From Lunularia cruciata (Eukaryota; Streptophyta; Marchantiopsida; Lunulariales; Lunulariaceae): a stretch of DNA of 64,000 nt. Made by a program: the position numbers and the translations under genes. Location of the stretch: the NCBI GenBank assembly GCA_948567375.1, contig OX419757.1, positions 74,841,836 through 74,905,835 on the forward strand. Reading direction: 5' to 3'. Of the stretch, positions 18,441 through 43,205 are shown in pieces. The first letter of the stretch is position 1. Every line of letters begins with the position of its first letter. Under the pieces are notes generated by a model. It made no database searches, was not told where the DNA came from, and worked only from the letters and a program-made list of their open reading frames with translations.

Positions 18441-20179
18441 GTACACCACTGCCACACCTTGGTCTCCTGGAGGTAAAGCTGCTGCATGAGAGGAGATGGT
18501 AAAGTAGGGGCCTAGGGAAGTTTTGACGGAGGGGACATAAGGGGTAACCGAAAGGGTAAGATACGGTAAGTCAGAGGGTAGGAGGATGGATCCACGCTAC
18601 GGACAGGATTGACCGAAACTGCGATGAGCGGTTCACGGAGGTAAAAGTAAACAGTTTCTCGTTCCGGGGCGAGAATGAGATTTGGTTACGGGCGGAAATT
18701 CACTACTGCAGTGAAGTGGAGTGGAGTGGACAGAGCAGAGCAGTGCCTTGTGCTGCCGTTTGGGGAGTGAACGAAGCGAGGAGCTGCTTGCTACGCGGCA
18801 AAATCATGCACAGATCACAGAGAGGAGCTTCTTCTATGCCCCCCTCCCTTTGATGGACTCCTCCATGGGAAGGGAAAAAGGTTGTTCCTTCGCCTCTGCT
18901 GCAACAATGGCTATTATTGCGATCCCCGAGTACCCGGCCTATTGAGTGGTCGTCGAGACGAAAGGAGACGCACCAGACACAGACAGACAGGAAGAAGAAA
19001 GGACGGGAAGGTAGCGGAAGAAGATAGTTAAGATCGGGTCACAATACTACCAACTGCCGATGATCTGATACTCCATTGTCGAACTACTACCATCCTCTAG
19101 TCGATTCGGGCACGTCATTCGCAATCCGAAGGAAGACAGAAATCACTGTCTGGGAAGGTATTCGGAAGGAAGTACCAGACGTGCGATAGAAGAGAAAGAG
19201 GAGAAGAGGGAAGAGAGAGAATGGAGAAGAAGACATGCATCTGCATGCAGGAAGGCTGATCTGAGTTTGAGTTAGTTGCAACTTCGGTTTCATGTTAGCT
19301 TGAGGAGACTCAAGCCCACCTATTGCAGGTTCCCTTTCGGCGGTGAGCTCAAGCTCCGAAAGCACCTGGATTTGACACCCATTCTTTGTGTTGACAAGCG
19401 TAACCTGCCCTCTTCCTATGGGGAATAACACCTGTGTTCTGGCGGAGTACCTACGAGCCAATGTGCTCAATTACTATCAGCGGTAGAGATAGTTAACCCC
19501 GTGTTAAGGGGAATGTTGGTCCTCGGGAGTCGACATCAGGATTGAGGCTGGGCGAAGAGATTGGTACCACATCTTAGTGAACTTTTAGTAGTTTTACCTG
19601 GCAGAAAGAAAGCCTGAGGTTGTTCGGTCGTCAGCAAGTGAACGCGATCTATGCTTCTATGGATCACCGGAAGCTGACTCTTCCATTTCTTGCTCAGGTA
19701 TTACAGCCCAACCCCTCCGTGAGTAAGATTGTCATTTTTGTGCGAGCTCTCCGGCTCTCTCTGTGCGCTTACTCTGAACTTACTATTACCGTCATATAAA
19801 TGCTCATCATTGAACAGCACCACAGTGTTTCACCTATTATCATTAACTCTACTCCCATCGCAAGTTGTATGTCATTATATGTGCGCATCACAGAGAACCA
19901 CTACATTGTTGGTGCAGTTTGGATTTCTGTTTGTGGATTGCAGTGGCTGGCGTAAGATTGAGTGTCAGCAGTTGGGAATTTCAAAACATTTACAGCCGTA
20001 GTTTGCTTGTGCCATTAATCACCAATTTCTGTCAAAATATGGCACATTGAGTTCCATTCGTCATCTAATTTGTCTGTCGTCACCTAATCCTTAGGTTGGA
20101 CCCCTTACATGGAACGCACACTTGCTTACTGACTGAGGATCCATAAGTTGACCTCGCAAACTTCCGACTCAACTCAAAG
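18441..20179 (+). other. Putative leader of the DUF3527 gene
   Basis: No other gene is seen here. A donor-like CTCAG/GTATTA at about 19697 and pyrimidine stretches before 20180 suggest at least one leader intron. Several short upstream ORFs are present (for example at 18721-18945). The extent is inferred, not shown. Confidence 0.35.
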
Positions 20180-20556
20180 ATGCGCGAGAGTACTCGCTCT
20201 CATGGTTTCATGAAGACAGGCAGCGGAAAATTAGCTTCTTCGTTGAGGAGCATTCATCCTCAGTACCGCGTAGGTGCCAAGTCCTGTGATGGAGGAGACG
20301 ACTCCCACGTCCGGGCTATGTGGGACGAGGAGTTTTACGGGCACGATCTACCGCCCAACTTCATAATTTCACGGGAAGGATCTGTAGATGAACATCACTC
20401 TAAGCGCAAGGATTCTGGTGGTAGTAGGCGGGACCTTACAGAACTGAACCCCCGGGAGCGAGCTATGTGGGATGAGGAGTTCCTCGGTCACGAGCTACCT
20501 TCCAATTACAGAATCTCCCGTGACAACAATTCGACATTCGAGGACCTATCGACCAG

Positions 20557-20587
<31 letters not shown>

Positions 20588-23500
20588 CGCAAGGAGTCGC
20601 GGGGGTGCCAGTTGACGAAGAAGTCTTCTGCTCACGGGGAGAAGACGAGCAGTAGAAGTGTTCACAGGCACGCAAGGTTTTTATCGGAAGATACTTTCGA
20701 GTATCACTTCGACAGAACTGTGGATAGTTACGTCTTGTGTGAAAAGAAGTCTCATGCACCGAGCACCAAGGAGAATGGTGGCCGGGACGGATCTATGCGT
20801 TACAAGCAGGAAACTTGCACTACTACGACGACTAAAGAAGAGACATTTGAAGAACGTGCGCTTCGCTTTGGGGCGGAAGACTGGAATTTGGTGGGTAAGA
20901 AGTGGAGTAGTACTCACACCGAGTCGAAGAGTAGCAGACGGTCTTCGAGGAGGGGGATTTTCCACTCCCCATCTGGGAGCGATAGTTCCAGCCTAGTTTC
21001 CACTCTCGAGTCGTCTTCGTTTTCCTGCGGAAGCGAAGGGAGTTCATTCGCCAAAGGAGACTATTCGACGGCTTCTGGGTACTCAACTGTCAGAAATCCT
21101 CCTTCAATTCGGGCAGCACGGCCGTCTGGTGATGGTATTGGTAATGTTAGTGTTGCAGGGGGAAAGGCATCCGGTGACGCGCAGCAGCAGTTTGTAGAGC
21201 TCACTCTGTTGGGGAGAACTACGAACCCGGATGTTGTCACGGACCTCAAGTCCGAGGGGGAGGCCGCAGAGCAAGAAAACGGGAACTTCTTAGAGTTCAA
21301 TTTCCTTGATGGGAGGATGGTGGAGAGCCCTGAGGATGGGCCAGAGGTGGAGAGTCGTAGTGGTGCCATGCAAAGTGAGCAGAAGTTTTCCATCAGGTTG
21401 AAAGACGAGGATGGAAGCTCAGAGGAATTTGTGGAGAGGAGTGCTGCTACTCCGACTGTGTACCAGTCCGCCACTACGCAATCTCCTGATAGTGAGAGTT
21501 TCTTTGGAAGCTCTCACGAGTCGGACTGGTCTGGGACTCATAGCGTTAGCACAGAACAAGGCCCGGTCAGTGCACGAGGCGATGGTGAAGATGACTTGGC
21601 AAGTGTTTACACGGAAGATCGAACTGAAGAGTGGAGCTTGAACAGCGAGGCTCAATTCTTCGATGCAAACTCTACATCTGCATCGAAGAAATCTTCATCT
21701 GCGGGTTCCGGCGGTAAAGAGCACATTCAGCTCTATCCAGAAGACAGAATGTCGACTGTTAACAGAACATCGAAACAACATCGTGATGTTTTTCGTTCGC
21801 TTGGTAAACCTAGTGATTTTGATAGTCCAAAGAAGCCCAGTAAGTCCCCTGCAACGTCGAGAAGAGTACGGAGCTTAGGATCTGTTCTGAGCCAACATCT
21901 TGCATTCACTGCGATTCCTTCGTTGCGCCAGAAAGCCCAACTGGGAAGGAGTTCAGATTCTCATAAAAAGCCACCCCTTGGCGCTCCCTGGGACGGGGAG
22001 AGTCCTGCCAAGGTGTCCGCCGCTTGCATTGAGTGGCTTTGGGCTGAGAAAGGTCATATGAAACCGATGCAGTCGTTGAGATCGCTTGCAGCCAAAGAGA
22101 GAGAGCTTGCAGCCAAGGAAAGAGAAGCTAGGGGGGATTCTGCTGCTGCAGTGGTGGTGGATCCTGCGCCTGCTGCCGGTGGTCCACCTGTGAGAAACTT
22201 GGAGGCCGCTTTCAAGGAGTCGAAAGCATCTTCTGTTCTTCGGAAGATCCAACATGGTGTGGAGAAGGGGGTGGGGGCTGACATCCTGAGACGACCCGCC
22301 AGGAGTGGTGCCAGTCCTGTGCGAGTAACATGGAGAGATCCTTCGAAAGAGTCGAGAGCGTCAATTCTGGCTTCATGGTCTGCTGTCTACGGCTTGACAG
22401 ATTCCTCTTCCACTGACAAAATCAGGACCCACACCAAATCGTCGTCTAAAGTCGCTCTACTTTCAGGCTCATCCAAGAAGGTGGGGAGATCTGGTACTCC
22501 TGTGAAAAGGAGTGTAAATGGTGGCAATGCTTCTCCTCGCCCCTCTACCAAGGTGGGAAGCAGACTCGCCAGGCACGTTCCGAAGAACCTCGCCCTGGAG
22601 CTAGAAGTTCTGTGCCGACCCTTCGGTCCTGTTCTGAAAGGCGTGCGCTGCTTACCCACGGCCAAAAGAGGTGTTTCTCGAGGAGGACCCCCATTCTTTT
22701 CAAGCTATCAAGGGGAATTTCACCAACCTGAGCAGGTATCGTCCTTATCGACGTCTACCCAGGTCAATATTACGTCCACCCTACTGCAGTATGGGCGCTT
22801 ACAGTGTGTTCTCACAAGAGATGGACTTCCGAGCTACAGCCTCATAATGGACGAATCGGAGGAGATCTTCGTTGCGAAAACGCAGCGAGTGGATGTCGGC
22901 CTTCAAGAAGGGGTGACACATCTTTATACTTTCCATTCGTACAAGGGGAAAGGGAAGGGTAAAATCACTCACTGGAGACAGTGGGGTAAGAAAGAGAAGC
23001 CGAGTTCTGATTTCGCTGGGAACATGAAGGTCACTTCGACCATCAGTCCCATGACAAGTTGCAATGGAGTGCAAAATTTTGTAGAGTCCGAGTTTGTGCT
23101 ACTGGACGCGAAGGTTAAGGAGATCTCTATTTCCATTCCGACCTCGACAAGCTGTCCGAGGTCGAGTTTTTCCTCGTGGGATGCAACTCCATTGAGATCA
23201 CCTCGTTTGCCGTCTTCCTCGTTTTCATCTCCCAGCTCGACCTACTTTAGCTTGCCCTCTCCTGCTGGTGCTGCTTTCAATACCTCCGAAAGTGGTGCAG
23301 CAGCAACTTCAATGCCCACTTTGACTCTTCCTTCATCTCGGTACGTATCTCAGAGTATGCCCGCTGCTGCTGTAAGCTCGAGGACTCACCAATCCAGCCT
23401 CGACAAAAGTTCGTCAAGTCTAGATAAGGGAGTGCTTCGGTTGAGGAATTTGGAGAGGAATATGGTTCTGGGAAGTCCGCTGCAGTACAACCCGAAAGCG

Positions 23501-24669
23501 AGCAACTATGGGCTTTCAGAGTCTTGGAGTGACTCTGAAGCCTTGGATGACAGCGAGTCCAGAATCACAAGATTTCTTCCACAGTCTCAGAGTGAACTTG
23601 CAGCCGTTGTTGTCAGAGCTCCTATGGGGAGTGGAGGAGATCAGGACAAGGGTACTAGTACAGACAAGTGGGGCTGGGGCATCAATTTTCTCCGCAAGGT
23701 CGGTGATAAGCCTCAGAAAGGGGGGAGTTCTCCCGCTACTGCTGCTGATGTCCAATCTCCAAGTAAAGAGACCAAAACTGCAGATGGTGATAGTCCTCCA
23801 AGTGAAGTCTGTCACAGCACCACCCGGGATCAAGTTTGTGGTTCGTGCGGGAGTGTTCCTGTGAATGAATATTGTAGGGCTGGAATGAGCGTCACATTAG
23901 TCCTTCCGGCAGGTAACCACGGCTGTAGTTCCAATGGCATTGATGGCCCCCAGCCCCTGGTCGAAAGATGGAAATCTGGTGGTAAGTGTGATTGTGGCAG
24001 CTGGGATTTGGGCTGTGGTTTAACTGTTCTTGGCAATCAGAAAATGGAGTCTTCAAGCATGGGAGCTGAAAGTGCCGCAGAGGCACAAGATAACTCCTTG
24101 AGACTTTTTGTTCAAGTAAGTTTTGCCACTACCCTTTCTCTAGTCTGATTTTATGAAGAAAGCGTTTTAATAGCTCCATCTTGTCTCAAATCGAACTGCG
24201 GGTAACGATGGAACAAAAAGCAGTTGAATGTTACTGTCATGTTATTTATCATGTTATTTATCATGATAACATGTTATTTATCATGTTATTTGTCGTTTTT
24301 GTTGCGTAGGGGAAGAAGCAAGAAACTATGGGGTTAACGTTGACTGCCCTGCGGGAAGGCTGCTACACGCTGGGATTCCAACCGCCTATAGCTCCCCTAC
24401 ACGCCTTTGCAACGGCCGTTGCGGTTTTACACAGCAAAGATCCACTGAACGTGATGAAGAAGGTCGCTGCAGGAGAGCTGAAGAAGCGGGGAGCATGCCG
24501 GGCTCCCGTGAAGGCGTGCACCAACGCCAACACCGACACCAACAACACATCTACTACCATGAGAGCAATTGCTACAAGGCCGTCCGAGGAAACATTCTCC
24601 ATAAAGCCCTTAAATAGCTACCAGCTGGTCTGCCCTGACCCTCCTCTTTCTCCGTTTGGAAGAGCTTAA
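20180..24669 (+). CDS. DUF3527-family plant protein, about 1431 aa, two coding exons
   Basis: Exon 1 is 20180-24115 (1312 codons) and ends at CAA/GTAAGT; exon 2 is 24310-24669 after gcgtAG; both junctions are phase 0. The C-terminal half matches the plant-specific DUF3527 family: VPKNLALELEVLCRPFGPVL (about residue 794), LLQYGRLQCVL, the FVLLDAK stretch, a Cys-rich block CDCGSWDLGCGLTVL (about 1270) and, across the intron, a block with LREGCYTLGFQPPIAPLHAF. The N-terminus is long, Ser-rich and low-complexity, with two copies of a MWDEEF.GH.LP.N..ISR motif (45-66, 94-115) and a 10-Gln run (127-136). The family has no established biochemical role. The start is the first ATG of the long frame; a leader intron could change it. 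Intact, no neighbours in operon-like spacing. Confidence 0.9.
20558..20587 (+). repeat. (CAA)n run encoding polyglutamine
   Basis: Ten consecutive Gln codons, almost all CAA, in the DUF3527 protein at residues 127-136; a likely length-variable microsatellite. Confidence 0.95.
24229..24297 (+). repeat. Intronic tandem repeat of catgttatttat
   Basis: Four copies of a 12-bp unit lie in the 194-bp intron of the DUF3527 gene. They are split in the middle by catgataacatg, which also gives the array an internal palindrome. Confidence 0.85.
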
Positions 24670-29041: not shown

Positions 29042-31747
29042 CTGTAAAGCAAACGTCTCGACATCTCGGCGGTGGACAAGATGGTGATAAGAATGGGTGT
29101 AGAAGGATCCAGAAGTTCGCACTACTTCTTTGGTAGAAAGTCGTTTCAGCAAACAACACCCAAACATATATTGTAGTCCTGTAGCTGCAGACCTTACTCG
29201 TCTCCTCCTGGTCGATTTGCATGTCACGATCAGAAACGTGCTCAAGAAATTACATTTGGAAACTCCAAGAGACCTTTTACATTCACTGTGGGCGTATGCA
29301 GCATTCTAAACACATGACAGGGAAGATCCCACGGTTAAGTGGGACCCAGAAAGTGTACAAGATAGACAGAATATTTTACACTTGCTGAGTCGATGGCAGC
29401 GGTGAACGAGATGGCTGCTCTAGATTCAAAAGATCTTCGTCTAGCGCTTGTGGACCACGTCCGCATGTCAATCCGCGAATTACCCACGCAATGCTGCAAC
29501 CGACCAATTTTGAAAAGGATCCCCCATCCCTGAAAGACGTGTTGTTCAATCTGCGTAGTGTTTCTGTAAAATTAGCGTTGTTTGTGACTTGTGTTTCTTC
29601 CAGTAAGACGCAATCTCCAGCTTCTTATATGGATTTTAGCAGTTCATCATTTGTAAGCGAATAATCATTATACAAGCTAGCTAACTGGATGATGAAGGGA
29701 GATGGGAAATAATGTACGTAAGACGGCCAATATCTCTTAGGTACAGAGGGACTTGCCCTCTCCTTGAAACGCCCGTTTCTCATCTCCACTGACGGGATCA
29801 GCGATCTAGCAATGACTACTTTTGTTGGTATGCCCCACATCAGAAAACCCTTTCCAAGATATACCAAACATTGAACTTCCAAGCCGTACAATTCCCCCTG
29901 CTAACAGAACTCTTGTCTGTATCTACAATGATGTGCAAGACTAGCTTTTCCTCACAAGGCTCATACAACAGACTCTAAAGTGACGATCATACTCAACAGG
30001 TGCTTAGATAAATATCGAGAACATTTGTCACGAAACCGAGGAGCTTATCGTAGACACTCGGTTCACGCGCAAAGCTCAACAAAGAACGCGCTCCAGGCCC
30101 ACAATAGCTATGAACATCTCAATACAATTGTTGGTTGACATGAACTTGTGCTCTAGTGGAATTTATTTGGGACAAAGTTGACAGAGGAGAGAGAATGCCC
30201 CGCAATCCCCTCTCTGCCGATACTCCATGCAAAGCAACCAATCACCTGTGGCGTGAGGGCATTCATAAATCGTCGCTGACAGATGTTCCATTCATCCACT
30301 CCTTATGTTCTAGCAAACTGATTTTCGACCTCAGAGTCCCAGAGACGTATATCGTCGGCAATCATCACCTGTGACCACAAGCGGTCTTCGGCTATCATGC
30401 TTTGTAAGCGTGAAGAACAAGGTGCAAACATTCTAGTTGGCTCAAAAGCCACCAGTCGGCATTCTCAGCAGAGTCTACTCTTGTTGGTGCTTGAAATGGT
30501 CTTGTCCATTGACAGTCTCATATTTCACCATTTCATATAAATGGATCGATAAATCGAACTCAGTCAACTTTACATGCGAGGACTCAGTTTCACACCTCTC
30601 TTGAAGTACAATAAAACAGCAAAAAGCTCACTGATGTAGTTCCCACCTATGTATGCTTAGGGAGCAGCACCGCCCAGATTCTGCACTAGTGTAGACTAAA
30701 TGATTTCTTCGGAAATGAATTGGGAGAACAATGGCAAGGAAGACGTATGTCCAAAAGAGATCGGGAGATGGGTGATATGGTAAACTGGAGATGGGGTAAG
30801 TTGATAAACTGGAGATCTCTAGCACAATGCTCGGCAAAGACTACACCTGAAAGAGGAAACCAAAACTTCCTCATCTTTGTAGGTCACTACTTTGCTTTAC
30901 ACGGAGATGGAGGGTTGGTGAGCTCTCCTTAGGCTACATTTTTCTCCACTTCTTTGACTACTCCTTTTCCGCTTCCATAATCATTCCTGGACCACATGGC
31001 AAGTCATTCCTTAGCATATGGCCAGGTACATCAATCTCTCTTGAAGCTGGAGATACCTTCACAGGTGCTCTTACCATTTAAAATCACGACACAAGAGGGC
31101 CACGTTTCTTTGAGAGTTTATAAATCAGATTTTAATATAGCTGTTCTTGAAAGGTAAGCAACGTCGATGGTGATCCACATCTGCTACTTTACTATCCCAA
31201 TCCTGTTAGTCGATATAGTGAATGGGGCAAACTTGAATACTAGGAAAATACTAGGCATCATACGTCATGTCAACATGGAGCGGTAATAGTTTAGTCTCTC
31301 GTGTGGTAAATGTCACTCAGTGCCTCAAAATCATCCTCGATACGAACATACTTCGGCGGTGCGGTCCCAACCAGGTAACAAACTGCAAGCCACTCAGGAG
31401 ACATCTTGTGTAGTTAAGCTAACCTTGTCTTCCGATTATTTTCACTACCAGGGATGCTTTCTAAGATCCTTAAAGAGCGATCATACTTGCCAGATTGGGA
31501 TTTGTAAGACTGATAATACTTGGACCATAATGCTTATTTAGGTGGCCGTCTGTGGGGGAGCTTTCTGCAATTGCTGGTGTCGGCGTCGACTCTGTTGATG
31601 TTCTTTGGAGAAAAACCTAATTTTCCACTAAAGTTGAAATTCATTTACTCCTTCCGCATTCTTGCTAGGTCGAATCCGTTAGCAAGAAACAATAGACACA
31701 ACAAACCAGTATCGTAAGTCCACACAGAGCTGTAGATAGGTCATAAC
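29042..31747. other. Unresolved region between membrane-protein exons and the carrier gene
   Basis: Probably holds the upstream exons of the minus-strand membrane protein and the 3' end of the carrier gene. A hydrophobic minus-strand stretch at 30628-30837 (with FWTYVFLAIVLPIHF) is a candidate exon. No chain could be supported. Confidence 0.3.
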
Positions 31748-33196
31748 TTACTGGATTTTCCGGGACAGTTGGTAGATTCCTGTTGTGGCCATCAGACAGT
31801 TGACGCTAAACAAGTTCCAATTTTTCTGTCACAACGGAAAACATATTACTTTACATGGTCAATATTAGTAAACAACCTACAGTATCATCAGGCTGTGACT
31901 CTTTCTTCCAGAAAAGAAGGTTCTGGTCCTCGGATCATGACCTCGAAGTAGGAATTGTCAGTACACTGATACCTCCACGAAACTTACACCATACACACGT
32001 GTATGGTGTGTAATATGTTTGACTGGATATACTCGGGGATAAACTCTTCGTAAGAAGGATTGTGCCGCGTTCAACCACATGGGATAAACCCACACAAGTA
32101 AGCGGTAGGAGCAGAGAAAATGGACCCTAGATAGTGAAGAAGTCAATAAGGATAGAGAGTTCAGACATACCGGGTTAATGACCATGCTGTACCGAGACCA
32201 GATAAGTCCAGTTGCTGTGACGGCTGTCACAGACGAACCATATTCAGCCAGAAAACTCGTCACCTATCTAGCAGAGCAAGGCCAGCTTTACACTAGCGTC
32301 TTCGGATCTATAGCCGTTCTCCAGATCATTCATCAAATCACAACAGTGATAATGGTGTATGGCACATACAAGGGAAAAAAATTTAGAGGCACCTTCACTG
32401 GGCTTTCGATAGAAGGAGAGGAACAATTTTAACAAAATCCTAAGCGTATCAGGAAGTAAGGGGGAGAAGGAGGAGGAGATTCACTTACCAACTTGCTGAG
32501 GATAAGATATCACGTCCGTAGGTTTGGAGAAGTCAGCAATGTTTGCGAGAGATATTCCCCATTTGAACGTGGGAGCCCAGAAGTGAACTGCAGATGCAGA
32601 CCAGATGCAATGGTCTCCTTAATTTGCAATTTTCTTTTATCCCATCACAAAACCATTGAAAGTTTGGTAGCTCATAGCAATGGACCCCAATTCATTTAAA
32701 CGATTTGTATCAATGGTCCTGGACTAGACTCAGCAAAAAAGTAGAGGCACAATCGAGCAGCAGAAACCAGACAGGACAAAAATGTCTTAATGTGTTCCTT
32801 GTACTCCTCAGATGACTGAATTTTATTGACCTGGGATATTTGGTATTATCCCTGGATACTGTATGGAATACACATGGGTTATGATCTTATTATTTGTGGG
32901 TTGTCATCAAAACCGTTCAATTTGGTCGTAATCAGATTGTACGAAGCGAAAGAGACAGCCCAAGAACCCAAATCCGCAGATCCACTGCTTGCTCACTCAC
33001 TCACTCACTCACTCACTCACAGATCTCACGAGCGAATTTCCCCAATCGAAGCTCCATGAAAGCAATCAAGATTCAAACGAACAAACATCAGATGGGGGGA
33101 TGGGCAAAATCAGAGCTGCTGAGTTTGACAGAACTACTCACTTGTTTTCGGGCCGGCCGGGTGGTTCCAAATCGCTTGCAATTTACTCGTCGCCAT
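31748..33196 (-). CDS. MPC: Mitochondrial pyruvate carrier, MPC2-type, 94 aa
   Basis: Four exons on the minus strand: 33142-33196, 32489-32587, 32171-32223 and 31748-31825, all GT-AG, with phases 1, 1 and 0 agreeing. The product begins MATSKLQAIWNHPAGPKT, then HFWAPTFKWG (residues 20-29), ANIADFSKP, SYPQQVAVTATGLIWSRYS and KNWNLFSVN (70-78), the hallmark plant MPC2-type sequence. Such carriers form heteromers with MPC1 in the inner mitochondrial membrane and import pyruvate. At 94 aa it is about 15 residues shorter than the plant homologues I recall, because TAA follows RKIQ where others continue; the same bases (CA/GTAAGT) could be a donor to an unseen last exon. It is head-to-head with the chimeric ferredoxin gene, which carries a partial copy of it. 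Confidence 0.93.
31986..32009. repeat. Palindrome in carrier intron 3
   Basis: acaccatacac and gtgtatggtgt are perfect inverted arms around 2 bases. The aligned intron in the duplicated copy (near 34,540) has only one arm, so the palindrome arose after the duplication or was lost from the other copy. Confidence 0.8.
32991..33020. repeat. (CACT)n microsatellite
   Basis: About seven tetranucleotide units in intron 1 of the carrier gene, absent from the duplicated copy. Confidence 0.9.
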
Positions 33197-33897
33197 AGCA
33201 ACCAGGTCACCCAAATTACGACCAAAGAGATCTGTCCTCCCTCAATCAGCCCCCCAGAAAAGCTTCGAAAACCGCAGCGCAGTCCGGGCAAGGAAGCAAG
33301 CGCTCCTCTCAATTCTCAGTTCTCAATTCCCAATTGCGATACGTACAATGGGATTTGAGCACTCGGATTTTCCTGCCAGTATCGTCCTTCCTTCCTTACC
33401 AACCCTTCTTTCACGGTGCTGCGTTGGCAACGCATCCCCTTAATATGGTACATAACTAAGTACTGTGTCTTTTCCTTGTGCGGCTTGAGGGGCTCTTCCC
33501 ATCCTTCTTGTTATCACGCGCGGTCGCCTTCTTCACTAAGTACTGTTCTACCACATTTGATGCCTACAGTACTGTATAGTAGTTCGGTTGGTAACATAAC
33601 TGCGGTGCACTTCATCGACGTAGTTTCATGGCAACCGCACCCACCCCCCCGACTGCAGTTGGCTGACATATACACGTGTCAATCTTTGGTGAAGATAATG
33701 AAATTTCGGACAGGCAACTGCAGTTCAATAAGGGTAACAAGGGTACTAAGGGTGAGGAAGGAAAGACTACTACGCAGACAGGAAAATCCCAGGGCTCAAT
33801 TCCAGTTTATCGACGGGAATCAAGAATTGGAAGCTTCTCTGGGGCTGGTTCAGGGAGGACAGATCTACTTGCTTGCAATTTGGCTCAATCGGTTGCC
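33197..33897. promoter_or_regulatory. Shared head-to-head promoter region
   Basis: A 701-bp gap separates the divergent start codons of the pyruvate carrier (-) and the chimeric ferredoxin gene (+). The leaders are duplicates: gaagctt..tctgggg and gggaggacagatct occur at matching distances before both ATGs. The middle contains tail copy 4. Co-expression from a bidirectional promoter is plausible but inferred. Confidence 0.55.
33455..33546 (+). mobile_element. 5'-truncated non-LTR tail, copy 4, 68 bp, with perfect TSD
   Basis: The 68-bp insert (33467-33534) keeps only the last part of the tail: ccttgtgcggcttgaggggc, tcttcccatcc and cgcgcggtcgcc. It is bracketed by actaagtactgt at 33455-33466 and 33535-33546, identical over 12 bp. 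This shows that the 3' boundary of the family lies just after gcggtcgccttcttc and that insertion makes ~12-bp duplications. Confidence 0.9.
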
Positions 33898-34728
33898 ATG
33901 GCGACTAGTAGGTTGCAAGCGATTTCGAACCACCCGTCTTTTGCGCAAACAAGTGAGTAGTTCTGTCAAACTCAGCAGCTCTGGTTTTATCCGTCCATCC
34001 GTCTGGTTTGTGTGAATCTTGGTTGCTTTCATACAGCTGTGTTGTGGAGCTTCGCTTTGAGGAATTTGCCTGAGGTTTGTGAGGGAGTGAAGGTATTCTG
34101 AATTCTCTGTTCCATTCATGTGACATCCACTTTATCTTCCAATCAAGGTGTTCTAAATTCCCTTTACCATATATGTGCTATAAACATTTATCCTTGTTGT
34201 GAAAAGAATGATATGTAGAACGGGTATAGAATCACAGAAACAAGCGTTAAATTGGCCGTGCTCTGCTAAATTGGTGACGAGTTTTCTGGTCGAATGTGCT
34301 TTGTCTGTGATAGCCGTAACAGCAAATGGACTTACCTGGTCTCGGTACAACGTCGCCATTAAACCGGTACGTCTGAGCTCTAATTCTCGTATTCCGTTCT
34401 TCATTATCTACGACTTATTTGCTCTGCCCCTGGTGCTTAGAGAGTTCACTTGTGTCGTTTACCCCTTGCAGTTGAACACAGCACAATTCTTTCCATAAAG
34501 AGTTTATCCCCCAGAGACGTATATCCAGTTTGTGCGTATGGTGTAGATTTCGTGGAGGTACCAGTGTACCGAAATCTCTACTTCCTGGTCATGATCTGAG
34601 AACCAGAACCTTCTTTCTGGAAGCAGTGAGCAAAGGCCACGTCTTGATGGAGCCACGTTGTTCACTAATATTGACCATGTAAGATGTTATGTTTTTGATT
34701 GTGGCAGAAAAATTGGAACTTGTTGAGA
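33898..34728 (+). repeat. Inverted partial duplicate of the carrier gene
   Basis: Opposite in orientation to the carrier at 31748-33196. Carrier exons 1, 3 and 4 have exactly equal or alignable lengths here (55, 53 and about 50 nt), and intron 3 is alignable and similar in length (341 against 345 nt). Leader similarity extends upstream to about 33,810. A segment of roughly 550-650 bp containing exon 2 and the microsatellite is missing. Similarity stops inside exon 4 after ACAACAGGAAT. Confidence 0.9.
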
Positions 34729-36376
34729 GTCAGCTGTATGATGGCCACAACAGGAATTCACAAACCGGAGTCGACGCTTCATTCTGTCACAGTTGTTGAT
34801 AGACAACGTGGTGTTACCCATAAATTCGATGTCCCCGAGGTACACGTTTTGCTATTCACGTGTCTTTCCAAGTTCTTAAAGTACAAATATATGGAGTGCA
34901 TTACGTTTCCAAACTTTCTCCATGTACTAAAATTGAGCTTCCATCTACTTCTTGGTTTGGAGGGTTTTGAGGAATTGAAGATTAAAAGTTCTCGACTTGA
35001 TGTACAGGACCAATACATCCTTCACACAGGTGAAGACCAAAGTATAGACCTGCCATTTTCCTGCAGACACGGTGAGTCACTGAAGTGAATGTGGGCTCAA
35101 ACTGAAGCTACTTCTTCTACTAATACCCTGATGTGACTGCTGTGGTAGGTTCCTCTGAAGCTTTGTATGGTGACCTTAAATGCATGAGAGCGAAGAGCAC
35201 ATTTCTTCGCCACAATCTCAGTAGACCGAGGGTCTTGGCTGTTTTTATATTCTGCTAAGGAATTTGCGCTCTGATGGTTGCTAGGTTGCTGCACAGCATG
35301 TGCTGTTCGCGTAAAGTCAGGACAGCTCTATCAGCCGGAAGCTTTGGGTATCTCTGCCGAATTGAAAGATCAGGTACGTTGAAAGAAAACGTTTGCGCAT
35401 GAGACGGACGGTGTGAACGTCTTGATTACTATTTCACGATAAAACTGGCTGTAACTGCGATCCTCGTGTGACTATTTGGATAATTTTCCTTGAATGAGCT
35501 CAGTCACTAATCAGGTTGTGCTGGGTCCTGTCATTCAATGTTGCAGGGATATGGACTACTCTGTGTAGGCTACCCTCTGTCTGACCTGGAAGTCGAAACG
35601 CAAGATGAGGATGAGGTATAGACAGCAAAACTGTCATCATAGTTGGCGTAAAGATACTGGTTGGATACTCGAGTATGGTCGACAAGTTAACGTTGGAGCC
35701 AATTTGCTCTGTTTCCTTGTCATTGTGATGTACTTCCAAATGAATTTTGGGCTCACTTCCGCTGATGCTTGATATGCAGGTATACTGGCTACAATTTGGT
35801 CGATACTTTGCTCGGGGCCCAGTGGTAAAGATACCTTTCCTGAGTGCTATTCCACGTCATTGATCTTTGTTTTATCCTTTTCAGGAGTTATGAGGGAATG
35901 CTTTTCGTCAATCTTCTTTCCATCGTTCCCGAAACATGGGTTGCAAATTTCTAGGGTAATAATGTCACTCACTGGTCGCTAGAGTAGTAAGTCAAACAGG
36001 GAGATGAAACCTCAAGTCTATCTTGTCATAAACCTATGGGGGTTGGTAGCCTGCGATCGGGATTAGATGAGAGTTGATAGCACAGTGCATTCGATGCTAG
36101 TAATTTTCTCTCGTCCTTCTTTTACCGTGTATAATGCTCCGCCCAGTCTATTAGATCACTCTCGTCTGGAGACTGAGCTAATTTACATGGAAGAGCCTGC
36201 GAGTTGAGTACTCAAAGTTTCTCTCAATTGTCGTTGTACCCTATTTGATGAACCCTAGCTTAACACTTTGAGATTGAAGGCTGATACATGGACTTTCTAA
36301 CGCAGCCACTCTCTTCCTGTATGTCGTGCAGGAAAGGGATGATTATGCCCTTGAGCTGGCTATGGCAGATGAATAG
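33898..36376 (+). CDS. FdC2: Ferredoxin C2 with a pyruvate-carrier-derived N-terminus, 183 aa
   Basis: Eight exons: 33898-33952, 34314-34366, 34708-34839, 35008-35071, 35285-35373, 35547-35615, 35780-35824, 36332-36376; all GT-AG with matching phases. From residue ~58 it is ferredoxin C2, a plastid [2Fe-2S] protein: SVTVVDRQRG, DQYILHTGEDQ, CRHGCCTAC (ligands C99, C104, C107), AELKDQGYGLLCVGYP (C137), the extended tail EVETQDEDEVYWLQFGRYF and ERDDYALELAMADE. Residues 1-53 derive from carrier exons 1, 3 and 4 (MATSRLQAISNHP, GLTWSRYNVAIKPKNWNLL). They are rich in Ser/Thr and basic residues with almost no acidic ones, as in a transit peptide. Carrier exon 2 is absent. The ferredoxin part is near certain; use of the 5' exons is inferred from open frame and intact splice sites. 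Confidence 0.85.
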
Positions 36377-37903
36377 GTTGTGTTTTTACTTGGACGTTTT
36401 TCGTTCAGCCGGAACGACGTTTAGGGTTTTTGCGAAGAGAGTGGCGCGGTTAGAAAGAGAAAAGGTAAAAGGTAGAGGTAAACGAGAAAAGAGAAGGTTA
36501 ACAATGTGGAAATGACCTGTAGAGTACCTGGTGGTTGTAAAATTTGTTCTGTTTCTTGTTTACAAGAAAGCATTCTGTAGAGAGCTACGTAGAAGTATTT
36601 CAATGGTGTCTAGCCTTTAGTATACTCGGGTGGTCGTTCCTTCTAACTGGCAATTCGGAAGGCTGCCTAACACAAGCCAGACAGGCAGAACCATGTAAAT
36701 CTTTCTCTCGCGAATTCAGTAAAGATTTGGAGCTAAGGGTTACCTTGTATAACCTGGCATCGGTATGTGTATCAGAACTTGGTAGACCTGCTCTCGTACC
36801 AAAAGTGCATCGTGGAATTCTAGTCATGGATAGGGGAGCTCAAAGCGTGGTTGTTATGGTAGAGGGGCTGATATTCTGCCCTTTTGTCCAAAGAAATGTC
36901 ACCCATCCGATGAAGTTGGATGAACAATAAGTGGTAGTAGCTATCTTTGTATATCATTATCCCAATTTTTTGAGACTAACCGAAATTAGTCCTGCATTAA
37001 GTCGGTTCATATTGATTGTGTTATGGGAACAAGAAAGCAAGAATCATAAGCTTTGTTATAAGCAGTAAGGGGGTTAGGAGAGGCCTGGAACTGCAAGAGA
37101 GTATGAGACGAGCGACTCTATTGTTGTAGGCTATTGGTGTACTTTGCTCGACATGAATTCATTTTCAGTCAAGAAGCAAGACAGACTGCGAGACGGAGTC
37201 TTCATTAGTACTCAAAGCTTTAATAGCCGGTAAGCACATTGGAAGTTTGTTTAGTCAGGTCTTGGAGATGTAGACTGAGATGGAGAGATACAATTAAGAG
37301 AACCAGCACTAGCGTAGCTAATACATCAGACTCTTCTCCTTAAGTTTAAAAGCTATTATCTGCATCTTTATCCGATCTACATTGTTTCTGAACTGTTGGA
37401 CGTAATGCCTGTTTTTGCACTGTCTTAGTTTCCTTCTCTCGCTTGAAACTTCTGTGGTTTCTGAAGAACAAGAACTTATTGCTTTGATCTACAAATTGAG
37501 ATCTTGCACAAATAGGTTATCTTAAACACTCAAAACTTGTTTCAGAAATATTCTGAAAACTATCTCAACTTGTGGTGAAGTTGGGATATAACAAATTTTG
37601 TGAGATCAAATTGTGGCTATCTCATCATCATGCTGTCGCCTAGTTGGACTGTATCGGGCCACTAAGGCCAAATTAGAACTACGGTTACATTCAAAATTTG
37701 CTGCGCATGGAGAATATTCCCCAAGAAGTCACATTTTGAATTGTAGCCTATAACTATCTCGTGAATTTTAAGCTATGTGCACCGAGTTTCAATCTTGGTT
37801 AGTTGCTAAGCAGAATTGGATTTACAGCAATTCCTAAATTTGCTGTTGTGTCTGACTAATGAGGGTTATATCCCTGGGGAGTGTCGTTGTGCATCCATCC
37901 ATC
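36377..37903. other. Spacer between convergent genes
   Basis: Holds the 3' UTRs of the ferredoxin gene and the subtilase. A 128-codon open stretch at 36544-36930 has no recognisable motif and probably is not a gene. Confidence 0.5.
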
Positions 37904-40900
37904 CTACTGTGGGGCTTGATGGCCGACAACTATCGGGCTTCTCACCTTGTGCACCCCATCCGACCAGGTGTAGCTTCCGAACACATATGCCTCCTGCGAA
38001 GCATCAACCTGAAGAGTTCGCTTCAACGTTATGGTGAAGGACCTCGTCTCGTACATACTACTAAACGACAACCTCGACGGATAAATCGTTACCCTCAAAC
38101 CTTTGGGCGCCTGTATGGACGCAGTGTACACACTCTTGGCCGGTCCGACATTGGTCACTCTCCGGGTGATTGTCATGGTTTGCTGAAGGTTAGAAACGGA
38201 TACCGAGGGGTAATTGAGGTTGCTCGGAGTTGGAAAGTACTTATGGCTGGTGCATGCATTTTGCTCTCCCGTTATGAGTTCCACGTTCACGTCGTCGTAA
38301 CCTAGAGCGCACAAGAAGAGAGTATAGTCCCGTGGACCTGCCTCGTATACCAGACCGGGATCTACTGCTACATTTGGGTTCACCAGCCCAGATCCAGTCG
38401 AAAAAGGTCCCGCAGGTTTCGAGAGAGGATTTTTGGTGAGACGGCCGGTGTTGTCGAGCACTTGAGCTGCACACATAATACATAGACTGAGCGTGATGAT
38501 CATACAAATTACGGCAGAACGTCACACTTAAAAGTATAAAAGTATAAAAGTATAAAAGACTGAAAAGCTGATCATGAACGATTAGAGGAGTTTTTCAGCT
38601 AAAATACCTGAGGTCATAATAGCAGACTTCATTGCAGCCGGGCTCCATCGAGGATGAACGGCTTTTATTAGAGCCAGCACTCCTGAGATATGTGGGGTTG
38701 CCATGGAGGTCCCGGAGATGGTAGCGAAAGGTTTCGGATCACCGGTCCATGCTGCTAGTATGTTTACTCCTGGTGCAGAAATGTCTGGCTGCCAATGTGG
38801 TAGTAGAATAAACAGTTTGTCAATAATCTCGAATGGAAAGCCGCTGCTGCTGCCGCAGTTTGAAGACAGACTGTAAAGACAGGATCTAAGTTCAAGAAGA
38901 GGCACGTACCTTCAATATATCACCAGTCACCCCGCTTGGGCCACAAGATGAGAACTCAGCTATGACAGGCGCGGGTCTCACTCCGGTAAATGTCTTCCCG
39001 GCGTAGATGGTCGCAGTTGTCTTTCTGGGCAATCAAAAACTAAAAGATTTCAGTCTTTTCCAACCCTTCCACAAAAGAACGCGTGCACCCACTGAGAAAT
39101 GCAATCGAAATCGTAGGTAACAATATGAGGGAAACTGCCAACCTAAGAATACACGAATCGAGGTCGCATTTAGATAAGTAGTCCAGGATTTGTTGACCGT
39201 CGTCTGCCGTAATATGAACTGCTGGAATGAGATGCTCCGCAGGATCAAGAGTATAATCACCCAGTTCCTTGGTATTTGCGACAATCATCCCAATCCCGCC
39301 AGCATCTCGTACTACCTGACTCTTCGATTCTATGCTCTCGTAGATATGCCCTCTCATACACAAGACAATCTTCCCCTCCACGAGTGAGGGAACCAAAGAA
39401 TCATCATAACAGAACCTGTCATGAAAGATAGAGGCAGTCATGAAGTTAAAAGAGGTGATACTACAGCATTCAGATTCGCATGTACAACTACTATTGAAGC
39501 AGTGGAGTGCAGTGCAGTGCATTGTGACATCACTTACATTGCATAGATACGGTCAGTGGATGCTGCCTGGGTAGCTAAGACCAATGGAGCGCTTATGGTA
39601 GAGTACTTCGTCAAAGTAGCTCCCTGCAAACGATCATCAAGTCAATCGTCATATCCACATGCAAAAGTTTTCAGTGAAGTACTTCTGTTGTCTCGATCCG
39701 ATCAGAAGTCTCGTCTTGTAGTTACAGTGAAGAGTTGTTCTTGTGCACTCAAACGATTCAGATACTTCCCTTTCGCCTGCGGAAGGATGCTGGTAATATA
39801 CTAGATCGCAACAGAATCTCACAATTAGCCTTGGATTTCAGATTGTGTAAGAGGTAGCCAAGAATCACATCGAGTGCTCAACTTTAGAGCTTTAAATTGG
39901 TTGAGAGTTTCAGTAATTTCCTTGTTTGAGGAGATTCATCGGTGCAGGAGTTCATGATTAGGCTATCTACTTCTTTGAAGCAATTTCACCAACATGAAGC
40001 ATCAATATGCAAAATACAAAAGTTGAGTTAGTTGCCCTCCGACCACTTGGCCCCATCTCCATCCTTGTCAGTTTAGCAGCCAGGTCGTAAAGGTCGTAAA
40101 ACTGATAATATTATGATTGATTATGGATGAGAATATCCAAGGGTGGACCTCTTTTCTCACTTCTCCCCTCGACCGGGAAAAAGGGCGACCGCGTAGAAAA
40201 TAAGAATAGGTTTGGACCGCGTAGAAAAAGAAAAGAAGGCTACCGCGTAGACCCCATCAAACCGTACAAGGGGGAGAAAAAAAGAAGAAGGTAAAGACCG
40301 CGTAGAAAACAAAAATAGATTTAACAAGATAAATTTAAATTTAATATTTAATATAAAGATATTCAAATAATTAATTAATATTATTAATAAGAATGATTAT
40401 GATAATGTTAAATTTATTTATTAATTTTTTTAAAAATAAAAATAATTTATTTTTATATTTAGAAAAACGACATAGAGAACAGTAAGGAAAGAAAGACCCG
40501 TCAATTCAAACCGTACAAGGGAAAGATGACCAAGAAAATTTCTTTTCACTACTCGAATAGTGGTTGAAAATAAGTCCTGATTCTCACACATCACATCATA
40601 TGGTAGAACTTCTGACTCACCCTGAATCTGAGAGGTCGAGCTCGTGGACTACCACTGAGTTTGATCTGAACATAGGCACCCAGAAAACGGTCTTGAGTTG
40701 TTGCTGCGACGGTAAAACTCCAGGGCTCGACGTGGGAAACTGTCCTAAGAGAAGGGCCGTCGTTCCCGCCGGCAAAAGTCACAAGAATACCTTTCCTCAT
40801 GGCATGGAAAGAGGCAATTGGCATCACTTCGTCCCAGAATGGCTGATCGTTGGATCCAGAGATCGACGCGGATATGAGGTCAACTCCATCTTTTATGGCT

Positions 40901-43205
40901 TCCTCAATTGCTGCGAGGATGTCAACGGCTGTACAACCAGCTCCTTGCCAGCAGACTTTGTACATTGCAAGTCTAGCCTGAGGAGCTCCACCTTTGGCGG
41001 TGCCATTTGCGTAGCCATTGATGTCAGCAACAGCAAAGGAGCCTCCTGCAGTTGCAGCAACGTGTGTCCCATGTCCCTCGAAGTCTCTCGTAGAATTGTA
41101 TTCGCTACCGAAGTCCACAAACACGTTCCCTCTCGAAAAGTACTTCGCTCCTATCAGCTTCCTGCCCCAACATGAATTGACATGGCAATTGTCAAAATCA
41201 TGTTCGTTAGATGTTGGTTGGTTGAAGGAATTTAACTTCAGAACATGATGTTTTGTGAAACCGGCTGCTTTCTAGTTTAGGATCATATAAAGTTACCGTG
41301 GAACCGAATAAGCTAAAAGAAAAGTTATGATTATTAGTGAAGGTTAACCGGAGTCAACAATCATGAGCAAATCCACAAACCTCACGACATCTCCAATACA
41401 ATGAAGTCCAAATTGGTGCTTGCCTGTTGCAGAGGGTTTTAGGGAATTTCTCTCCCTCTACGCACTCTCCTTTCCATCTCGCGGGGATTGGACCAAGTCC
41501 TGCATCATTGAAGCTGGCGGATTCTGGCGTAATACCTGTTCGAGAATCAATATCTTTAGATAGATTCCTCTAAATCTAAAAGCAGTGTAGATAATAGGGA
41601 AGCTCTGATATGAGACTATGTGATACACACGAGTAAAGTGATTACTCTAGCTACGTTTTGACATGTACGCTATTTAGCACAACTCACTAAAATGTACTTT
41701 GGATATGGACAAATTGATACAAAGCCCAAACGCGACTCGAACCGTACCTGTGTCGATGATCCCAAGTATCACATCTTTACCATAATGTGCCCGCTCCCAC
41801 AGAGCACCAGTATTGGAAGAGCTGCTGCTTTCTACGCCAAGAAATTTCCATGAATTGGTTGTTGTTGGTTGAAACTTTCTGTTTGGGGTCACTCGAAGTA
41901 CCCCTGGCATTTCTGTTGGCATGAACAGATCGGAAGAAAACAAAAAGGTTTCAAAAATTCCGCTCCGCTTTCAACTAAAGCAATTGACAATGGTAACACG
42001 ATTTACATACCAAACAGACCTAACAGCAGTCGTATAGATCATCATCGTATAGCTCGAGCACGCGTTTTGAAAAATGAATTGAAACGAAATTGAACTCCAG
42101 TATCTCAACAATCTACAGGACGAACTGTTGTTATATATTCAAATTCAATCTAAGGCTTCGATTGGTTTCAAGCTTACTTGAAAGGCTGGTAACTTCCTCT
42201 GCTGTAAGCATAGCAGCGAAACCATCCAACACATTTTCATAGCAGTAAATCAAACAGCTTTCAACCTTCTCGGCACTGTCCGACAACAAATTGATCACAA
42301 TATTAATCTTAAGCTTGTGAACGTCCGGTAACGAAGTTGGCACCGACCTCTGCAGGCATCACATATTTAGAATCAAATTTTACAGAACCATTCCAGAATA
42401 GTGATTAGGAACGAAAAGTTTGATGTTTCAATGCATGAAAACTAGCAACATTAGACAGTTGTCATGTGAGATCTGTGTATGGAGTAGATTGATTACTTTA
42501 CCTGCCTAGAGCTGCTTCCAAATAACCCCCATGCGTGTTAGCTGGGTCAGCTTTACCAGGTCGACTTGGACTCAGACTTACAAGATATACCTGCTTGAGT
42601 AAAGCCATTCGTCCATCAGTTCCGGTATTCCACAGCAACGCAAAGTTTGTGACGAACAAGTCCAACGTCATGCGTGTACGAATTGAGTACACAATGGTAA
42701 GGGAAAAAGAAGCTAGCTATGTCACAATAGCTAGCTTCATGAATTCCTATACGTGGGATATAGAGACATTGAATGATACTTATTACATTGTGGATTCTCA
42801 ACTTCAAGACTCTAGTGAATTGGTTTTGAGTTGGAAAAGTGGGTCCTTACACGAGCGAGGAGTTTTTAGCTCCATGAGATCGTATCTTGAGCGATCTCAT
42901 GGAGCGATCGGGTATGTGGGATGACAGTTCAAGATGGTAGTTTGTTATACATATAATCACAGAAGGGCTCTACTCAATGCCGGCAGGGAATAAGAATGGG
43001 GCATTCTCTCTGTGAGTAAAAAATCTGTCGTACACGATCAAGATGTCCATCGGAGCTCGATCGATAGTCCGAAGCTCACATCTAAAGTGATAAACGGTTC
43101 ATGTTTAGTTACCTGAGTTTCTTCTGCTGAAAGGGAAATGCTCGCAAAGAGAACAAGGAGCAGCCCAAGCTCGGCCTGTAACATCATCTTCCTCGAGCCC
43201 ATCAT
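37904..43205 (-). CDS. Secreted subtilisin-like serine protease (plant S8A subtilase), 795 aa
   Basis: Eleven exons on the minus strand: 43113-43205, 42502-42590, 42178-42347, 41748-41912, 41424-41535, 40621-41161, 39538-39623, 39143-39415, 38910-39024, 38608-38788, 37904-38466. Lengths sum to 796 codons with the stop, and every junction is in phase. The product has a signal peptide ([15 protein letters not shown]), an I9 propeptide starting VYLVSLSPS, catalytic Asp in GIIDTG (D171), His in [12 protein letters not shown] (H240), oxyanion Asn in GGNDGP (N343) and Ser in GTSMATPH (S576), a PA domain (about 418-509, [19 protein letters not shown]) and a C-terminal Fn3-like domain (RRVTNVGP). Length is normal for plant subtilases, which process or degrade proteins in the cell wall. 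Exon 5 uses a GC donor. The subfamily cannot be told from motifs alone. Confidence 0.95.
40140..40545 (-). mobile_element. Rearranged non-LTR tail copies in subtilase intron 6
   Basis: In antisense, the tail terminus (accgcgtaga, the reverse of tctacgcggt) occurs four times at about 40191, 40215, 40240 and 40296; the aaaccgtacaag block occurs near 40260 and 40509. A very AT-rich stretch (40330-40480) separates them. This looks like nested or multiply-tailed insertions. A target duplication is not clear (ctcttttctcact against ttcttttcact). Confidence 0.65.
42709..42738. repeat. Perfect 12-bp hairpin in subtilase intron 1
   Basis: gaagctagctat and atagctagcttc flank a 6-nt loop; transcribed as part of intron 1. 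Confidence 0.9.
42869..42905. repeat. Perfect 14-bp hairpin in subtilase intron 1
   Basis: gctccatgagatcg and cgatctcatggagc are separated by 9 nt, about 130 bp from the other intron 1 hairpin. Confidence 0.9.

Follow-up and report, generated by a model that had tools for sequence, protein, structure and literature searches.

In the stretch of 64,000 nucleotides of Lunularia cruciata DNA analysed here (hereafter the window), the 5' part of a mitochondrial pyruvate carrier (MPC) gene is present as a second, inverted copy, which stands head-to-head with its donor and runs in frame into the gene of ferredoxin C2 (FdC2). The copy was very probably captured by FdC2, and would have supplied its leader and a putative plastid transit peptide. 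The preliminary description of this DNA had already traced the FdC2 N-terminus to a duplicated carrier gene, and this reading is supported by the DNA homology and by the first exon of FdC2 in three relatives.

The donor gene is placed on the minus strand (30929-33196) and encodes 112 residues in an open frame. It is composed of five exons (33196-33142, 32587-32489, 32223-32171, 31825-31752 and 30986-30929), separated by GT/AG introns whose phases in the spliced frame are 1, 1, 0 and 2. Pfam recognizes the MPC family over the first 94 residues (6.1e-39). The closest sequence among the best 120 of 895 matches, ranked by similarity to the whole query, is MPC2 of Marchantia polymorpha (95%, 89/94 residues). 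The gene had been described as extending over 31748-33196, which is incomplete: the TAA at the supposed end, 31748, is part of the GTAAGT donor that follows exon 4 (which ends at 31752), and a fifth exon is found at 30929-30986. The two genes are separated by a head-to-head intergenic spacer (33376-33778), flanked by the innermost arms of the repeat (I8, 33351-33375 and 33779-33803). Elsewhere in the window, pieces of one or more subtilase genes with Peptidase_S8, PA and fn3_6 domains are distributed over three separate ORFs of the minus strand (37904-41271), and 20147-24148 of the plus strand is one uninterrupted frame of 1333 codons that contains a DUF3527 domain. An Rfam scan of the 64,000 nucleotides returned no matches.

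The FdC2 gene is located on the plus strand (33898-36376) and consists of eight exons (552 nt, 183 residues), open to a TAG and bounded by GT/AG at 7/7 introns. The spliced frame remains open across the carrier-derived and the ferredoxin parts, as had been claimed, and the splice sites are those described before (donors GTGAGT and GTACGT, acceptors tAG and cAG). The first native FdC2 coding sequence is the 3' part of exon 3 (34766-34839, with an approximate junction), which leads into SVTVVDRQRGVTHKFDVPE. Exons 4-8 follow at 35008-35071, 35285-35373, 35547-35615, 35780-35824 and 36332-36376. The core after the junction is common to the aligned liverwort, moss, lycophyte and rice sequences. The protein contains a 2Fe-2S Fer2 domain and an FdC2-type C-terminal extension, the latter alignable with rice FdC2 (P0116) as far as its last residue. 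PF00111 is present in all 120 FdC2-type matches listed (the best of 2550 when ordered by resemblance to the full query), and the name ferredoxin C 2 is attached to many; the closest of them to the spliced window protein are liverwort ferredoxins.

This single spliced protein is matched by two Pfam families, Fer2 (3.9e-16) and MPC (4.6e-06, 27.2 bits vs a cut-off of 27). The match to PF03650 covers model positions 46-84 of 110, which is part of an MPC domain and not a complete one. A profile of MPC exons 1, 3 and 4 was built from 91 plant rows of the 120 listed MPC matches, with exon 2 omitted and 29 rows dropped whose exon pattern did not fit. It matches the window FdC2 with an E of 1.4e-24, and the part after exon 1 scores above 2000/2000 shuffles. 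Residues 1-57 contain no stop, one acidic residue (E57) and 18 S/T/K/R, in line with the earlier account. Upstream of 34708 the frame closes at a TGA (34696), and therefore a transit peptide must be spliced in. When the window was searched by tblastn with the N-termini of Calypogeia, Marchantia and Riccia, no convincing remnant of an alternative FdC2 transit peptide was found.

The homology between the two genes extends to the non-coding DNA. A gene-blind repeat finder returned 13 inverted pairs for the region 30500-36500, nine of which (I1-I8 and I11; 25-179 nt, 78-88% complementary) are collinear and pair 31768-33375 with 33779-34765. When aligned region by region, the leader, exons and introns of the copy resemble those of its own MPC evenly, at 77-86% identity. 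The copy of the MPC leader or proximal promoter (33779-33897, plus strand) is now placed 5' of the FdC2 ATG (79.7% over 123 aligned nt, with 5 gap runs). It starts 119 nt upstream of the FdC2 start, at the outermost arm, so that FdC2 may have gained a promoter too. An in-frame stop is present at 33664, and the bases that separate it from 33898 contain no in-frame ATG. Exon 1 of FdC2 (33898-33952) is a copy of MPC exon 1 that includes the start codon, with 18 codons and 1 nt (80.0% over 55 nt, no gap). It is followed by a hybrid intron (33953-34313) that joins the head of MPC intron 1 (85.6%) to the tail of MPC intron 2 (76.6%), the main blocks corresponding to MPC 33141-33009 and 32401-32224. 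About 600 nt of MPC are absent from the copy, including exon 2 (32489-32587). This loss is neutral for the frame, because both introns that flank MPC exon 2 are of phase 1.

FdC2 exon 2 (34314-34366) is the copy of MPC exon 3 (84.9% over 53 nt, no gap), with acceptor tgatag and donor gtacgt. From the general topology of MPC, we take this donor exon to be the former second membrane helix. The copy of MPC intron 3 follows (34367-34707, 82.5% over 314 aligned nt), and the 5' part of FdC2 exon 3 (34708-34765) derives from MPC exon 4 (85.3% over 68 aligned nt, with all gaps beyond the junction). These identities and the collinear pairs confirm the claim that carrier exons 1, 3 and 4 recur in inverted orientation. 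The junction between MPC and native FdC2 sequence is placed at about 34758-34766, within an exon that also codes for the start of the ferredoxin core. The junction had been predicted inside one exon after MMATTGI, and this is where the exon 4 copy ends and where arm I3 stops (34765). As expected from exon capture, exons 1, 3 and 4 of the donor and its intron sequence are recognizable in the recipient at the DNA level. Chance similarity of the copy to MPC was also considered, and is ruled out by the inverted pairs, the region alignments, the Pfam match and the MPC profile.

The first exon of FdC2 was compared across relatives, as had been suggested, and MPC exon 1 was found in two Marchantia species and in Riccia sorocarpa. 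The annotated FdC2 proteins of M. polymorpha (P0002), M. paleacea (P0003) and R. sorocarpa (P0004) start with MATSNLQALWNHP or MATTRLAALWKHP, which corresponds to MPC exon 1. They match M. polymorpha MPC at 13/18, 13/18 and 14/18 exon-1 residues, respectively, and the window's own pair matches at 12/18. The set of FdC2 N-termini contained 118 of 121 sequences, the window included (P0093, P0104 and P0120 could not be cut before the core). The MPC profile matches four of them: the window (1.4e-24), P0004 (2.5e-9), P0003 (8.5e-6) and P0002 (1e-5). The other 114 of the 118, among them Calypogeia, mosses, lycophytes and seed plants, gave no MPC match (best 0.13); outside the clade, the N-termini of the recipient's orthologues are not detectably related to MPC. 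Since three relatives have the same first exon, the fusion in the window is no quirk of one contig. The 120 listed matches include five Marchantiopsida records. Two of these, a second M. polymorpha model (P0005) and R. fluitans (P0006), have other annotated starts and belong to the 114; their first exons may be mis-modelled or mis-annotated. A search with residues 1-86 of M. polymorpha FdC2 returned 4 proteins of 11 candidates (P0002, P0003, P0005 and P0122) and no further carriers of the exon, and is insensitive, since it missed R. sorocarpa. The ferredoxin core of the window differs, per 121 residues, at 5 positions from both Marchantia species, at 9 from both Riccia species and at 11 from Calypogeia.

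The record P0122, an ORF of 198 residues, gives a base-level view of the same region. It opens with the Marchantia exon-1 peptide and then reads on in frame. In another frame it is compatible at 66/66 bases with the M. polymorpha exon-2 peptide ECRNLTRGKFSANFSNASKPLP (95% for M. paleacea, 0.83 at the next offset), which is compatible with P0122 being Marchantia DNA, as we take it to be. Joint decoding of the two frames fixes 64/66 bases of exon 2. The bases allow a GT donor right after codon 18 plus 1 nt, and in front of exon 2 they allow a CAG acceptor. Exon 1 would then measure 55 nt and be followed by a phase-1 intron, matching the window FdC2 and MPC. The intron 1 DNA of P0122 does not exceed 15 shuffles each when compared with the window introns or the spacer. 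As a side observation, P0122 reads through exon 1 and the intron, and illustrates that protein records can yield DNA by two-frame decoding.

Beyond exon 1 the relatives differ from the window. In Marchantia, shuffled sequences fit the MPC profile as well as the FdC2 tail after residue 18 does (p 0.94 and 0.84), and any resemblance of the inferred exon-2 DNA to MPC exon 3 or to its copy does not rise above shuffles (p 0.40 and 0.42). Compared with the window copy, the Marchantia tails reach p 0.03 and 0.02, no better than the Selaginella control (0.023), with Diphasiastrum at 0.07. A correspondence of Marchantia FdC2 exons 2-3 to MPC exons 3-4, proposed by eye from the motifs W-x-L-x-R, ATT and I-x-Q-x-R, was rejected as unsupported by shuffles. 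The R. sorocarpa tail gives a suggestive signal with the MPC profile (p 0.005 for residues 19-78 and 0.009 for residues 19-38). With a profile of exons 3 and 4 alone, the window is the only match and R. sorocarpa is not picked out. The relatives have exon 1 in common with the window, which is the only sequence in which exons 3 and 4 are demonstrated. Elsewhere these two exons diverged past recognition, or else the window lineage later extended or refreshed its copy.

The copy and the window MPC differ at 19 of 53 codons, and 16 of the 19 differences change the amino acid. At 10 of these 16 sites the residue of the copy is found in none of the 91 plant MPC rows, so that most of the change can be placed on the branch of the copy. 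The exceptions are residue 5, where M. polymorpha MPC carries the copy's R, and residues 32, 35 and 47, where the window MPC has a residue that is in the minority among plants (14, 3 and 1 of 91, respectively) and common to M. polymorpha MPC. With a dN of 0.157 and a dS of 0.211, and an intron divergence of 0.16-0.28 substitutions per site (both branches together), the amino acids of the copy changed at about neutral pace or faster. Coding indels are absent from the 159 nt up to MMATTGI, where a rate half that of the intron gaps (28 runs in 634 aligned nt) predicts 3.5; the resulting P(0) of 0.03 is rough, because the intron gap count takes in alignment ends. The open frame alone is weak evidence, since the start would be kept and stops avoided by drift with a chance of 0.43.

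The composition of the copy has also shifted. The maximum hydropathy over 17 residues falls from 1.02 in MPC to 0.36 in the copy (mean of 0.51 in 117 other FdC2 N-termini), and the S+T fraction increases from 0.18 to 0.24 (mean of 0.23 in the same 117). The S+T, K+R, D+E and A contents and the hydropathy of the window N-terminus are all within the 5-95% range of these 117. Judged from composition, the changes would look like membrane helices remodelled into a putative transit peptide. At residues 44-46 of the window FdC2, in the exon copied from MPC exon 4, a V-x-C is present (VSC; VNC in MPC), and Marchantia FdC2 has a V-R-A (VRAEA) in the corresponding exon. Both motifs presumably resemble stromal processing sites.

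The function of the captured residues is suggested by that of FdC2. In the account of PMC8408499, barley FdC2 (Viridis-k) carries a predicted transit peptide, can drive the plastid Mg-protoporphyrin ester cyclase in vitro and has a role in plastid chlorophyll synthesis; losing it is lethal. Since FdC2 is thus a plastid protein, the captured N-terminus is most likely its transit peptide; by the conservation of FdC2, the liverwort protein would also act in plastids. The yeast MPC proteins, as reported in PMC6945462, follow the TIM22 carrier pathway and are non-cleavable; it is therefore not necessary that the captured exon 1 once served as a mitochondrial presequence. The N-terminus might instead direct FdC2 to mitochondria, or to both organelles and not to plastids alone: it was derived from a protein of mitochondria, and in Marchantia the match to MPC persists in the first 14-15 residues. 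Given the plastid role of FdC2, the carrier pathway of the yeast protein, the loss of exon 2 and the lower hydropathy of the remainder, such a destination is unlikely.

We propose that the 5' part of MPC would have been duplicated and inverted beside itself, and that the inverted copy would have landed in FdC2, its neighbour, within the first coding exon, replacing the native leader and the transit-peptide codons. FdC2 would be transcribed from the captured leader, with splicing that joins exons 1, 3 and 4 in succession, and the residues of MPC origin, no longer of membrane-helix character, would serve as plastid transit peptide. The annotated gene models of Marchantia and Riccia speak indirectly for such a chimeric transcript. 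It is very improbable that the fused frame is unused, with FdC2 starting from another first exon beside an MPC pseudogene. Models with other starts are annotated in relatives (P0005 and P0006), but three annotated relatives have the same exon 1, the copy retains an open frame and consensus splice sites, and the closure of the frame at 34696 leaves the transit peptide to be spliced in.

Most simply, the capture by FdC2 would have occurred after the Marchantia and Calypogeia lines split, while Marchantia, Riccia and the window plant still formed a single lineage, a timing that rests on few species because the set is the best 120 of 2550 with one Calypogeia-side liverwort. The split of Ricciocarpos and Riccia is thought to be mid-Cretaceous (PMC10715061), so that the Marchantia-Riccia split, and with it the capture of exon 1 if single, would be older. 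The main difficulty is the divergence of about 0.2 substitutions per site between the arms, which is small for an event before the Marchantia-Riccia split. Slow evolution or homogenization of the arms would account for it; Villarreal et al. 2016 are said to describe the Marchantiopsida as slow-evolving. We judge that there is a little short of an even chance of a single capture, in an ancestor of Marchantia, Riccia and the window plant, by which an essential plastid ferredoxin gained its promoter region and transit peptide from the leader and the membrane-helix exons of a mitochondrial inner-membrane carrier. Another course, compatible with the main reading and tentatively possible, is that MPC exon 1 only, perhaps with the leader, was captured in the common ancestor, and that a later inverted duplication or gene conversion in the window lineage extended or refreshed exons 3 and 4. 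Marchantia keeps exon 1 only, at a detectable level; in the window, copy and MPC show an even identity of 77-86%, introns included; and at residue 9 FdC2 agrees with the MPC of its own species in both species for which the two are available (I in the window and L in M. polymorpha). Residue 9, however, is a single and easily changed site, R. sorocarpa retains a weak MPC signal after exon 1, and the reputed slow evolution of Marchantiopsida argues against the need for a second step.

The origin of targeting peptides is debated, and there are few examples in which donor and recipient can be observed together with an intermediate state. In the window, the donor with its introns adjoins the recipient, and exon 1 is shared with the model plant Marchantia. 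If the capture by FdC2 is true, one could follow base by base, in one lineage, how a membrane protein gave rise to a transit peptide, with the end product in Marchantia, and carrier pieces without a cleavable presequence, as judged from the yeast work, could be remodelled into a plastid address. In the open-licence literature, no paper on an MPC-derived FdC2 N-terminus was found by title or abstract start.

The window FdC2 is like barley FdC2 (Viridis-k) in its core, from VTVVDRQRG to the C-terminal extension. It is unlike other FdC2 in the MPC origin of its N-terminus, which is detected in the window, two Marchantia species and R. sorocarpa and undetected in 114/118 of those tested. The copy resembles MPC (PF03650) in the sequence of exons 1, 3 and 4 and in the exon ends, whereas it lacks exon 2, has less membrane character and is fused to a ferredoxin, and a carrier role is not expected. 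The gain of a targeting peptide by exon capture is already known: the presequence of plant cytochrome c1 derives from cytosolic GAPDH (Long et al. 1996, as given in PMC5610209), and the passage from MPC to FdC2 would be a new case. In both, an organelle protein took its N-terminal targeting peptide, a putative one in the window, from exons of a nuclear gene unrelated to its own. Cytochrome c1 had a cytosolic donor and a mitochondrial target, whereas in the window the donor is a mitochondrial inner-membrane carrier and the target a plastid protein. Unlike in cytochrome c1, as far as that account describes it, the donor gene still adjoins its recipient as the other arm of the inverted repeat, introns and leader included.
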